Shown here one piece after another: positions 54,401-60,400 of a stretch of 64,000 bases of DNA. The translations under genes and the position numbers were made by a program. Below the pieces are notes generated by a model. It was given only the letters and a program-made list of their open reading frames with translations, did not search any database and had not been told where the DNA came from. The stretch is from Bolinopsis microptera (taxonomy: Eukaryota > Ctenophora > Tentaculata > Lobata > Bolinopsidae), in NCBI RefSeq assembly GCF_026151205.1, contig NC_087074.1:11885182-11949181 (forward strand), in the 5' to 3' direction. Each line of letters starts with the position of its first letter. The stretch's first letter is position 1.

Positions 54401-57400
54401 AAAATTCCTAAATCGTTCTGCGTGCTATCTTTGTTTGGATGATTAATCTCGTTGAGGTACAACAGATGATTTTTAGTCTAGATAAGGTCCAATAGGCTTA
54501 AAACTCATAAACATAGTCTGATAGTGTTTAGAGTGTATATACCGCGAAATAACACCGTGAAATCCTTTTTCTGATCCGGCAACACTAAAACCCCGAATAT
54601 GGGTTTGTGATGAACGAGCACCTTTTGAAAAACACTTAAGCGGTGTAGATCAAGATTTTCCTGTGCTTGGAGGTTCTTGCAACCACTCTAAGACAAGGGT
54701 GTCCGTAAAAATAATATCAAGTCAACGGTAGAATTATGTTGAGTTTGGCGATTGACGCAAACGAGGAGAGAGCGTTCTGTTATCATCCACATGTGAAAAA
54801 TCTTGCACCAACGCTGCTCAAATGACCTGGGGATCCATTTTTCTACTCCATCAAGACACAGAATCAAGACCACAATTCCAAGTATCAGCAAGATACTCAA
54901 CGTCAACAGTCTTTGTATGATGGTTCATTTGCAGTAATGGGGCCACTTTTATTGAACACTAATCCATCAGATCTTCACCTCATTGAAGACCCTCTGCTGT
55001 TTAAAGCAAACATATCAGCATTACTTAAATCGTTTTCAGATCACCCATCTATGAGCAACTAGAGCTCAACAGCTACCCTAATGGAAATTCTTTGCTGGAC
55101 TGGAGTATGAAATAGGCAGCAGCGATACTTTTTTTCTTTTTTTTTTAAGAGAGGCTGGGCCTGGTTGGCCCACAAGAGGATAGCATATGGATGCTTTGCC
55201 TACCTCTGGGGTGTGGCAGTCCTGTGGGAGGATGCAAGTGGAATCAAGATGTGTAATCAAGGATGATGGTTAGTGTTGTGGGGGTGTGTCATAGATAAAC
55301 GCTTAAGTGGTGGTTGAGTGTGGAAGAGAGAGGCGAAATAAGACGGCGTTAAAGTAGTCGCTATGTTACACCGCAGCGATGCTGCAAGGGCGGTCGAACT
55401 ATTCGATGAACTGCAGTAGAGGAATCTACGATTAGTAAGTAATTAGAACCACTACCATCCACACCTTGGTTAACGCACTGTTAGTACACACCTTACTATT
55501 AATCATTACTATTAAAATCAACCAATCAACCATCATTACAGAATGGTAACAGGTAAGAACTCGGACTCACCTTACCACAGGAAATTGAAAAATAAGTTCC
55601 ACCCAAAGCTTGAAAAAGCTTTTAGCTGTGGGTGGGACTCACTTAGAAACTAGGTGTGATATACCATTAGCAATATTGGGCTAGATCAAAGGTGTCCCGG
55701 TCCTTAATACCATATAAAACAGTACAGGAACTAGCTCGACAAATCTATTTTAAATTTGTTTTTTCGGGTACGTTCCTGCATCCTAGTCATCCTTTGTCAT
55801 CTCTACATTTCTACCATGGCAACATCAATAAACTCGGAGTACAAGATTCAGAATGAAAAAGAGCGATTTGTTTGGATCTCCTACTTTCTCCTCGTACTGA
55901 TATCTTCCCTGGTCGGAGATTGTCTGGTCCTGGTAGCATCAATAAAAAGTGATGCTTTGAAACTGAACAAAATCCTTGTCGTTGTGATAAAGCATATTGC
56001 AGTCTGTGATCTGATACGTTCTGCGGGGACTGTAGTTCCAATAGTAGTGTCCCTCAGCTCAAACGGCTGGGTCTTTGGAGATGGTTTGGGTTATGTCCTG
56101 TTTGTTTGCGAATCATCCAGTGGGCAGGCATCTAACATTTTTGTTGCTGTTCTTTGCAGCTTTAAGTTACTTCTTTTGAAGTTTCCTATGAAATCCAGGA
56201 ATTGGACCATGATGAGAGCTCACGTAGTTTGTGCTTGTGTTTGGATCTTTTCCCTCGTTTTTTCCACAATTATCTTTAAGAGAGACATTTTGTTTGACTT
56301 TATTCTCTACAAAGTAGTTGTGGAACTACCGCTAAACTGGGTCATTCCAATATTCACATTCTTTCCACTGGCCTCCATTATCATTCCAACTCTTGTTGTG
56401 GTCCTAACAACGATCCCAACTCTGTACTATCTGGTGGATGCAAGACGGACTTCTCGGCACATTGGAGGGCGGTTAAGGTGGCAGGGAATCCTCACTGTTG
56501 TTGCTACGGCGACAGTTTATTGCATTTGTACACTCCCAGTTATGCTTGTGGCGATGTCAAAAGTATTAGTATTGGAGCTCAAGGATATGGGAACGTATAG
56601 CCAATTTATGAGAGCTGCACGATTTTTGAATACTCTTAACATCACGTGCAATTTCTACATCTATTGTTTCACTGTAACGAGCTTTAGACTATTTATTAAA
56701 GATTGCCTGTTCCGATGGTATTCTTCGTATCGTTGTAATGTAAGACCAGTTGAAGATACGACAAGAACTATCGATACAGTGCTGAGCAATAACCGGAAGG
56801 CTGAAATTATGACAGCTGTTGACGCTGAAGTGTGGACTGGGATAGAAATGGACGAATTGGATTAAGACGTTGGACAATGGACATGAGACTGGACATAGGG
56901 GCTGATAAGAAAGGGCAAAGGTGACATAAAGACTGGAGAAAAGAGTAGATGTCATCAAAAATTGAGATCGAGAATTAAATGAAAGACAATTAATGCGATG
57001 GAAAACTATTCAGCTGAGTACGTGTTTTAAGGCTTTGACCTAAAATAGTAAAATGGGGATCTAAACGTGAACTCGAGCATCTGGGACTTGTCAAGTATGT
57101 TATAAAGGGCGTGTTAGCGTTCTTGTAAATCTAAAAAGCTTTTCAAATGTGTGGTGATAACTGATAACCCTCCTAACACCCCAGGTGATAGTCAGCCCGG
57201 GAGCAATAATGGTGATAACACCTCCTAACACCCCAGGTGATAGTCAGCCCGGGAGCAATAATGGTGATAACACCTCCTAACACCCCAGGTGATATTCAGC
57301 CCGGGAGCAATAGTGGTGATAACACCTCCTAACACCTCAGGTGATAGTCAGCCCGCGAGCAATAGTGGTGATAACACCTCCTAACACCCTAGGTGATAGT

Positions 57401-60400
57401 CAGCCCGGGAGCAATAATGGTGATAACACCTCCTAACACCCCAGGTGATATTCAGCCCGGGAGCAATAGTGGTGATAACACCTCCTAACACCTCAGGTGA
57501 TAGTCAGCCCGGGAGCTGTAGTGGTGATAACACCTCCTAACACCCTAGGTGATGTTCAACCCGGGAGCAATAGTGGTGATAACACCTCCTAACACCCTAG
57601 GTGATATTCAGCCCGGGAGCAATAATGGTGATAACACCTCCTAACACCCCAGGTGATATTCAGCCCGGGAGCAATAGTGGTGATAACACCTCCTAACACC
57701 TCAGGTGATAGTCAGCCCGCGAGTAATAGTGGTGATAACACCTCCTAACACCCCAGGTGATAGTCAGCCCGGGAGCAATAATGGTGATAACACCTCCTAA
57801 CACCCCAGGTGATATTCAGCCCGGGAGCAATAGTGGTGATAACACCTCCTAACACCTCAGGTGATAGTCAGCCCGGGAGCTGTAGTAGTGATAACACCTC
57901 CTAACACCCTAGGTGATAGTCAGCCCGGGAGCAATAGTGGTGATAACACCTCCTAACACCCTAGGTGATAGTCAGCCCGGGAGCAATAGTGGTGATAACA
58001 CCTCCTAACACCCCAGGTGATAGTCAGCCCGGGAGCAATAGTGGTGATATTCCCCATGAGTCTGGTGACAGTACTGTGTTACGTGTTCTACAAGCCGTGT
58101 TGCCGTGTTATTAGAATACTTCACGCTGATTACAAGCAGAATATTTACCGTCACATTTGTGAGACTGTCAGGTTAGTAATATGATTTGTTGACACAAGTG
58201 CATCGGATTTCAAATTTTAAGTTATTTTTAAATGTTGCGTGTTATTTTGATTTTAAATCCAAGGGTTAATCAATACCTAATTGTACTATGAAGTGCTTAT
58301 CTGAGTTCAGAACAGTTAAATACATAGCACTACATAAATATTTCACATTCTTCCAATCACGTGACATTGTTTCCTCTATTAGTTGTCTGACCCTGATAAG
58401 AGGATACGGAGAGCAGGATGAGTACATCTCTCTACTGGCTAATCAGACTAAAAACTTATACTGCATTAACATTGTAAGTTCCTCTTTGTTTTTGTGGTTT
58501 TTTAGGGGATTTTAATTCTGAAGTTAGCGCCAAATTTTCTTGTGTAATGCTAACCAAACAACCTAGGTTGAAGCCGCAAAGGTAACGTATCTTAAATGTG
58601 GTGAAAAACCACACGGCTTTGTTGACTATTACTAGCAAAAACCGAGTTTCCTCTGTTTATAAAATGTACTCCTCTACATTTATTTACAATGACTGTCTAA
58701 TGTTTATTCAGGTGTGGGCAGGTATACAGAGATGGTTATCTCTCTACCAAGATACCTGTGTAAATATCATCGTTATGGGATCCTTTATAGCTACTACTTT
58801 CGTATCAGACAAGGTTCTTTATACTTTTTGTTTGATATCCGCCAAAAATGTCAATCTTATTTTTTGGGTATTAAGCAGAATTGAATAATGAATAACAATT
58901 CAGCATCCTACAATAATTCGAGATACATCTAACGCGAACGGATTGACGAGTTTTTACCAAACATTCGATCAGTGATCTCATCATTACAGATGGACAGCCT
59001 CATTTGATTATGACATCTTATCATTCCAAGTCAAATAGTTTTACTAGCACCCTCCTCCAGATAAGAATGGAGCTGTTAGCACTAGCCCTCCTCCTCCTCC
59101 TCCTATCCACACAACACTCCCGACTCCTCTGGAACCTTCTCGACTCCTGCGACGTTATCCTGACCTCTATAGACAACTGCGCGAGTCTGGCGTACCACTC
59201 CCCGCGCGAGGTGGACAACCCCAGGTTCAAACCTCCTGCGCTGTGGCCTCCTAAGGGAGGGCTGCTTTTCCAGGACGTCTTCGCTAGCATGTCCGTAAGT
59301 ATTCCTCCACAGAGAGACACGCTCACTGCTCACTGCTCACTGCTCACTGCTCACACACACACACACACACACACACACACACACACACACACACACACAC
59401 ACACACACACACACACACACACACACACACACACACACACACACACACACACACACACACACACACACACACACACACACACACACACACACACACACAC
59501 ACACACACACACACACACACACACACACACACACACACACACACACACACACACACACACACACACACGTACACACACACACACACACACACACACACAC
59601 ACACACACACACACACACACACACACACACACACACACACACACACACACACAACACACACACACACAACACACACACACACACACACAACACACACACA
59701 CACACACACACACACACACAACACACACACACACACAGATTTGTAAAGACAAACTTTCCCCTAGAAGGACGAACCATCAGCCGATGTCATTTGAACCTCC
59801 GAAAGTGTTGAATAGTTATTTTGCAGGATATTTTAGTTCTAATTGCAATGTTGCACGGGGTTTTCACATTATCTAAAAAACAGCTGATTATCGTTCACAC
59901 AATAAAGATAATATCTACATTGCTTGTTCGCTGTTGCCTGTTGGAGTGCACAATAATAGATACACAAGCAGATAGGAGTGTACAAATATTTGCAAGCACT
60001 CTACAGTGTACAGCACACCATTAAATTGCTCCTATATTAGGACATGCCATATATTCGCGGTCTTTTAATCGACTTCCAACATTCTTCACTTATTCCATGA
60101 TTACATTACTCACAGATTGCATATATTTACTGGTTCACAATGATCTAATGATTAACAAACCAGCGAAAAAATCAACATACCGATCAGGCTAATCATACGT
60201 AATGAATTCACATTATTTCAGAGTACTCAAATTTACCAATGTTTCTTTGCAGGTCGATCAGGAGCCGCAACTGAGGAATATTACGTTTAGCGTGAAACCT
60301 GGGACTAAGATTGGAGTAGGAAGCTCTCAGAATGGTGGCAAGAACTTCATAGTACCCCTCATTTTTAGGTAAGAAATAACGTCATAGTACCCCTCATTTT

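Follow-up and report, generated by a model that had tools for sequence, protein, structure and literature searches.

A 52-bp tandem array of splice acceptors, probably a mirage resolved at its last copy, in an ABCC-type gene of the ctenophore Bolinopsis microptera

A 64,000-nt stretch of the Bolinopsis microptera genome (contig C3, NC_087074.1, C3:11,885,182-11,949,181; hereafter the window, to which coordinates refer unless another locus is named) contains a gene of the ABCC transporter type in which a long intron ends in a 52-bp tandem array that repeats the splice acceptor together with the beginning of the following exon. By its anatomy the array belongs to a kind of structure already described in lancelet, the mirage, a minisatellite lying across an existing intron-exon border, and it is probably to be understood as such a mirage, in which the last of seventeen acceptors is chosen by exon definition. 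The parts of the gene concerned are as follows, with a slash marking the splice position here and below.

52398-52497, forward strand: exon k of the ABCC-type gene, with an open frame and a donor, ending GTACAG/GTATGT; the joined protein matches PF00664 and ABCC chains in the PDB.
52498-58016, forward strand: intron between exons k and l, 5519 nt, the 3′-most 855 nt of which are 52-bp array.
57162-58049, forward strand: 52-bp array of 17.1 copies (Tandem Repeats Finder), each unit carrying the 3′ end of the intron with the opening 33 nt of exon l.
58017-58171, forward strand: exon l, 155 nt, for which the acceptor at 58016 alone keeps the frame.

Tandem Repeats Finder assigns the array a period of 52 with 94% matches and 0 indels, and whole-genome DNA searches, which covered 264.65 Mb in 232 contigs with a tool that scores the best candidates only, matched it at this single locus. 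A preliminary description of the window had reported seventeen acceptor AGs at exact 52-bp spacing from 57184 to 58016, each followed by the first eleven codons of the exon, and both statements are confirmed: the AGs lie at 57184 + 52i (i = 0 to 16, the last being 58016), GTGAT follows directly in 17/17 units, such that AG/GT is common to all, and each unit carries 33 nt (11 codons) of the exon l start. The accompanying claim that every upstream unit repeats the intron end needs qualification. The sequence TCCTAACACC 5′ of the AG is identical in 17/17 units, but the two bases preceding the AG differ among them, with CACCCCAG present in the last copy and in 7/16 upstream copies; the exact intron end CTCCTAACACCCCAG is accordingly confined to these copies, whereas the remaining upstream units carry CACCTCAG (4/16) or CACCCTAG (5/16). 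A pyrimidine tract and a branch-like sequence are present in every unit, the candidates for the branch site being TGATAAC or CTCCTAAC. As in mirages, the tandem unit spans the exon-intron border, and the proposal that an acceptor and its exon start had been amplified in tandem is borne out by the 17.1 copies.

To determine the consequences of each acceptor for the reading frame, exon k was joined to all 17 of them in turn and then to exons l, m, and n; exons i and k together are open in two frames, of which the one with ABC homology was used. A single acceptor (1/17), that of the last copy at 58016, leaves the frame open across l, m, and n. The other 16 lead to an early stop, which, in the numbering of the test fragment, falls at residue 117 for 15/17 acceptors and at residue 135 for the penultimate copy. 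The 52-nt unit is not a multiple of 3, and with all 16/16 upstream acceptors leading to a stop the array lacks the frame-keeping character of repeats of the UBC type (see below). The PF00664 match (3.8e-14) spans the k/l junction, which is ungapped in the 3 PDB homologue alignments examined. Because an open frame is obtained from 1/17 acceptors and there is no gap at the junction, the exon start at 58017 appears correct; as judged from the sequence, exon l begins there, after acceptor 58016, in agreement with the earlier view that the last copy alone opens the real exon (58017-58171), and the 16 upstream copies would be intronic. The last acceptor is presumably also the site used in RNA. Exons i, k, l, m, and n, and likewise p and q, are open when joined and have consistent phases, and the borders of the gene outside the exons listed are provisional.

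The ABCC identity of the gene is indicated by its membrane domain, the joined protein scoring 53.5 bits against PF00664 (ABC membrane domain; cut-off 28) with MRP1 and ABCC2 as its top PDB chains. The first stretch of the first nucleotide-binding domain matches PF00005 at 38.2 bits (cut-off 25). Close paralogues with the same intron were not found in a protein search of the genome, which returned 5 matches, all of them exons of the ABCC-type gene. A search of the genome for the ABC membrane family gave 42 matches; because none of these (0/42) falls in the ABCC-type gene, the gene is too diverged for that search. Rfam returned 0 matches on the window.

Further downstream, the same gene contains the mirror image of this arrangement, an array that repeats an exon end together with its donor.

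60253-60368, forward strand: exon p, the start of the second nucleotide-binding domain, ending TTTTTAG/GTAAGA; 24.3 bits against PF00005 when joined to exon q.
60343-60752, forward strand: 35-bp array of 11.5 copies, comprising the exon p end and the donor, in the same gene and at one locus.
60369-62337, forward strand: frame-keeping intron of 1969 nt, running from the donor of the first copy to exon q.

This second array shows 82% matches in Tandem Repeats Finder, its first copy reads TTTTTAG/GTAAGAAAT, and a partial sequence of it was matched at a single locus in the genome search. The frame is open and ABC-like when the first donor (after 60368) is spliced to the acceptor at 62337, and read-through of that donor meets a TAA one base inside the intron. 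The frame-keeping site is thus the last in the 52-bp array and the first in the 35-bp array, in each case the copy adjoining the body of the exon.

Splice-site strength, intron length, and the copying of borders were assessed against a sample of 43 donors and 44 acceptors (87 borders) in seven genes of this genome, all of them inferred and not taken from RNA. Both ends were placed for 39 introns, of which 27 belong to five myosin loci, 7 to the ABCC-type gene, and 5 to an ABCB gene; this set excludes the two introns that adjoin the arrays (5519 and 1969 nt). For the ABCC and ABCB introns, placement relied on visual inspection together with a script. In the myosin loci, a simple script using generic splice preferences was applied to 34 pairs of neighbouring exons and found a fit for 28 and none for 6, and one low-scoring fit was dropped to leave the 27; certain of the pairs kept join overlapping profile stretches, possibly alternative exons, and one stretch of the myosin locus L059 (the second copy of profile 102-167) had been left out beforehand. 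Among the genes matched by the ABC membrane family search, one (on C13) was examined for splice borders. Exons open with GT directly after the acceptor in 8/12 cases in the ABCC-type gene (48602-60252) vs 7/32 in the other sampled genes (15/44 overall).

Each border was represented by the 40 nt spanning it and matched against the 2.5 kb to either side; the best off-site match was 19-26/40 at 85/87 borders. Additional border copies number 16 for the acceptor at 58016 (36-40/40) and 9 for the donor after 60368 (32-40/40). Border arrays therefore occur at 1/43 donors and 1/44 acceptors, both in the ABCC-type gene, with none at the borders sampled in the six other genes. Weight matrices were likewise derived from this genome, the array being left out of the acceptor matrix (n = 43). 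On this scale the last acceptor, 58016, scores 12.54 bits, more than 40/43 real acceptors; 10/16 upstream acceptors equal or exceed it, the first copy reaches 12.37 bits, and the five copies with CCTAG 8.70 bits.

Comparison of the units with one another indicates how the array may have grown, and involves the following segments.

57237-57600, forward strand: first 7-unit copy (units 2-8) of a higher-order duplication, 364 bp, with 7 differences from units 9-15.
57601-57964, forward strand: second 7-unit copy (units 9-15), identified by unit comparison.
57151-57159, forward strand: GTGGTGATA, intronic and immediately to the left of the 52-bp array, recurring at the exon edge (58041-58049); candidate founding microhomology.

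The distance between units is minimal at a lag of 7 (mean 1.56 of 52), the remaining lags from 1 to 11 giving 1.83 to 3.79, and the 7-unit duplication reveals block-wise turnover and homogenization of the units, as in mirages. Inside the 7-unit block there is a partial three-unit pattern, in which units 2 and 3 recur unchanged as units 5 and 6, and there are 3 differences between units 4 and 7. The first copy is set apart from the others by a small indel near GTGGTGATA, seen by eye, with the exact join uncertain. The presence of GTGGTGATA both to the left of the array and at the exon edge fits a founding duplication between short matches, after which the array most likely grew stepwise by unequal exchange or slippage. 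Among the copies the splice core is not significantly spared, 3/11 variable columns falling within a core of 23/52 columns (P = 0.18). The longest invariant run, of 21 columns, has a P of 0.025, but was chosen post hoc, and selection on the splice core is not claimed. Distinct changes in the exon-derived part of the upstream copies comprise 7 nonsynonymous and 2 synonymous, set against an expectation of 71.7% nonsynonymous over all single changes, and hence give no sign of coding constraint. The share of nonsynonymous changes and the splice-core result fit upstream copies that are neutral and noncoding, with the reservation that the numbers are small.

The preliminary description had likened the array to a recognized model of intron gain by tandem duplication of an AGGT-containing segment, which is the model of Rogers. 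A new intron in that model is said to arise from exon sequence, the duplicated segment being wholly exonic. The 52-bp unit contains a pre-existing intron end, and in this defining feature the comparison is not sustained: because the unit spans an existing intron-exon border, its duplication would, judging from the sequence, lengthen an intron and is not a gain of the Rogers type.

It is proposed instead that the array was founded by a tandem duplication, probably one between short intron and exon matches, of a segment comprising the end of the intron and the beginning of the exon, and that later amplification proceeded in steps, the last clear one involving the seven-unit (364-bp) block. Exon l would be recognized as a unit because the upstream intron is long (5.5 kb), and the acceptor nearest to the exon's own donor, that of the last copy, would be paired with it and used. 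Transcripts spliced at upstream acceptors would be out of frame, contain early stops, and be exposed to nonsense-mediated decay, an established pathway for messages of this sort. The identical rule would select the first donor copy of the array at 60343. Where flanking introns are large, the splice sites closest to one another across the exon are reported to pair (Carranza et al. 2022, PMC9225289). The introns beside the arrays measure 5519 nt (upstream of exon l) and 1969 nt (after the donor array), and in both cases the frame-keeping site is the nearest across the exon.

Several observations weigh against a mirage resolved by exon definition. The intron 3′ of exon l is 211 nt, so that only one flank of the exon is long. 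Among close-set 3′ sites the upstream AG is reported to be nearly always used (PMC9225289), which would count against the last copy if the acceptors compete late in splicing. At 11/16 upstream acceptors the score is at most 0.2 bit below that of the last copy, or higher, and because these sites are about as strong, strength alone cannot account for the choice. A genome-wide habit of border arrays is unsupported, the arrays being found at 2/87 borders and in one gene. With regard to the gene itself, the next stretch of the first nucleotide-binding domain matches 0 Pfam families, and the second domain (exon p joined to q) scores 24.3 bits against PF00005, below the cut-off of 25, the ends of the domains having been traced in part. 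Inspection by eye of 48000-63900 suggests that several of the usual ATPase motifs are missing. Because part of the gene is unlike a normal ABC ATPase, selection on the gene may be weak and mis-splicing may be tolerated.

Taken further, this would mean that the gene is decaying or mis-spliced, with frequent use of upstream acceptors, early stops in most transcripts, and an array symptomatic of relaxed selection. The strength of the upstream acceptors would suit such a gene, as would the early stops that follow from all 16 of them, the degenerate look of the nucleotide-binding domains (judged partly by eye, with one stretch lacking a Pfam match and one below cut-off), and the occurrence of two border arrays here vs 0 at the borders sampled in six other genes. 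However, the exons that were joined (i, k, l, m, n; p, q) form open frames, agree in phase, and retain ABC homology, and decay of the gene is considered unlikely. That the copies were multiplied in assembly is more doubtful still. Tandem arrays are prone to misassembly, and the draft version of one lancelet mirage was termed aberrantly assembled by its authors (PMC3087553), but the ordered differences among the present copies (the 7-unit duplication and private changes) are unlike the product of simple stutter, and 0.9 kb would lie well inside the length of long reads, if such reads underlie the assembly.

A further alternative takes its start from the AG/GT in 17/17 copies, a 3′ site followed directly by a 5′ site as in recursive splicing. 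Any acceptor could be used first, after which the regenerated CAG/GTGATA would splice to a later copy, all paths leading to the same messenger RNA (mRNA). The preliminary description had held each copy to be both a possible acceptor and a possible donor, and the acceptor half of that statement stands, the acceptors being strong; the donor half is weak. CAG/GTGATA scores 5.95 bits, which is within the range of real donors and above 8/43 of them, but this score is reached by 7.2% of all GTs in the window, and GTGATA occurs in 0/43 sampled donors. Steps of 52 nt, which had also been envisaged, lose support, since one unit and two units (52 and 104 nt) are shorter than any of the 39 introns, for which the minimum is 112 nt in a small sample with inferred borders. 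Three units (156 nt) correspond to a usual length, ten introns measuring 112-168 nt, and a re-splicing step of at least three units is thus the more likely because the smaller ones fall under the shortest sampled intron. The two copies nearest exon l, from which repair would require a step of merely 52 or 104 nt, both carry the weaker CCTAG acceptor, as such a scheme would favour; the chance probability of this is 0.083 given 5/16 and the pattern was spotted post hoc. The lack of significant sparing of the splice core (P = 0.18) points the other way. Re-splicing at AG/GT is on balance improbable, and so, to the same degree, is the reading of the array as a self-correcting ladder, in which transcripts landing on any of the 17 acceptors would hop by at least three units to the last copy and, because AG/GT permits re-splicing, yield one mRNA whatever the first acceptor. 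If it did operate in this way, a frame-breaking minisatellite could grow freely at a splice site.

The favoured explanation, a mirage resolved by exon definition, implies that an intron can lengthen by taking up copies of its own exon while the protein remains unchanged. The gene sets up a natural competition among 17 near-identical acceptors with a single open-frame choice, together with a mirror case of about eleven donors, and its arrays constitute a good natural test of splice-site choice. To our knowledge, laboratory constructs carry no more than one or a few duplications of a splice site.

Tandem arrays in general are abundant in this genome, 87 having been detected in 134 kb of distinct sequence, and cover 6.9% of the window and from 3% to 34% of the 10-kb pieces sampled. 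An array may also adjoin a splice site without copying the border, as does the following one.

48287-48601, forward strand: array based on 8 bp, which stops one base short of the acceptor of another ABCC-type exon and contains no copy of the border.

Arrays with splice-like units were seen at three other loci. At L052 (3796-4090 and 5389-6858; periods of 44, 74, and 134 bp) the unit contains ACTAAC...TTACCCCTCTCAG and resembles a full splice acceptor, a coding exon not being evident by eye within 3700-4200, the sole stretch read. A 34-bp array at L047 (8111-8279, forward strand) and a 28-bp array at L046 (4907-5352, reverse strand) have a consensus with GTAAGT, and by eye no coding exon adjoins them. 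These acceptor-like (L052) and donor-like (L046, L047) candidates were not counted as border arrays because no coding exon was evident by eye in the flank stretches read. In the ABCB gene on C13 (L012, L022, and L025 merged), a 1.1-kb array at 3371-4517 occupies most of one intron, and the corresponding two exon frames of the related gene on C5 are only ∼145 nt apart. At the myosin locus L059 (C3:9151400-9160000), parts of the profile for the myosin head are matched twice in tandem, wholly or partly (105-167 and 102-167; 285-331 and 296-382; 512-582 and 522-640), in a manner resembling genes with mutually exclusive exons.

The 5.5-kb intron also contains, on the strand of its host gene, an intronless open frame of 376 aa (55735-56865, forward strand) with the look, by eye, of a rhodopsin-type receptor; its last 349 residues have no Pfam match at E <= 0.01. 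The reverse strand has receptor-like frames of similar appearance at 2977-3969 and 5525-6346, and also a tandem cluster of related open frames at 39939-46689, the one frame of the cluster tested containing a BTB domain (PF00651, 28.9 bits).

Repeats that carry splice sites have been described in several other settings, each of which resembles the ABCC-type gene in part. For a potato RdRp gene, Ma et al. (2016, PMC4974935) show from RNA reads that a new intron can come from one duplication spanning an intron-exon boundary. The unit is again an intron end plus an exon start and inherits a branch site, pyrimidine tract, and AG, but the one duplication described there yielded a new intron and an extra exon piece, whereas in the ABCC-type gene there are 16 extra copies and no upstream acceptor by itself leaves the frame open. 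AGGT sites in the tandem repeats of UBC and VCX3A are reported to be dual-specific splice sites (Duan et al. 2024, PMC10809524) and share with the 52-bp array the placement of AGGT at a fixed interval. The UBC units are, however, coding, 228 nt long, frame-neutral, and variably spliced, in contrast to the 52-bp array, which is frame-breaking and apparently noncoding save for its last copy. Fission yeast introns in tandem repeats are similar in being repeat-built with proto-splice sites (Zhu and Niu 2013, PMC3629103), but in the account given of them the nearby exon is the source and the intron is new, unlike the 52-bp array. The minisatellite of human 6-16 (IFI6), two downstream repeat units of which serve as alternative donors (Turri et al. 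1995 as cited in PMC4526556), offers many equivalent splice sites and in this is comparable to the 35-bp donor array; its repeats are donors, unlike those of the 52-bp acceptor array.

The closest parallel is with the lancelet mirages. These are minisatellite-like duplications at either exon border, many units of which contain AG/GT, and reverse transcription-polymerase chain reaction is reported to suggest regular splicing (PMC3087553). The genes concerned are Adh3, the globins BflGb6 and BflGb9, TnC, and PGBD5 (PMC3087553, PMC3902484), and in the report that treats PGBD5, Adh, and TnC the mirages of Adh and TnC are stated to yield no aberrant mRNAs (PMC3902484). The arrays of the ABCC-type gene likewise consist of border-spanning units that keep AG/GT and are homogenized in clusters, the undisturbed splicing being reported for lancelet. 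Unit lengths, at 52 and 35 bp, compare with 150-160 bp in the lancelet globins and 10-72 bp in Adh3. The BflGb6 mirage differs in length between two haplotypes, with 6 and 3 units (PMC3087553), in contrast to the 17 and 11.5 copies found here. Relative to the lancelet accounts, the ABCC-type gene is set apart by this high copy number as compared with BflGb6, and by its combination of one array of acceptors with one of donors, although repeats at 5′ and 3′ sites are also mentioned for lancelet PGBD5.

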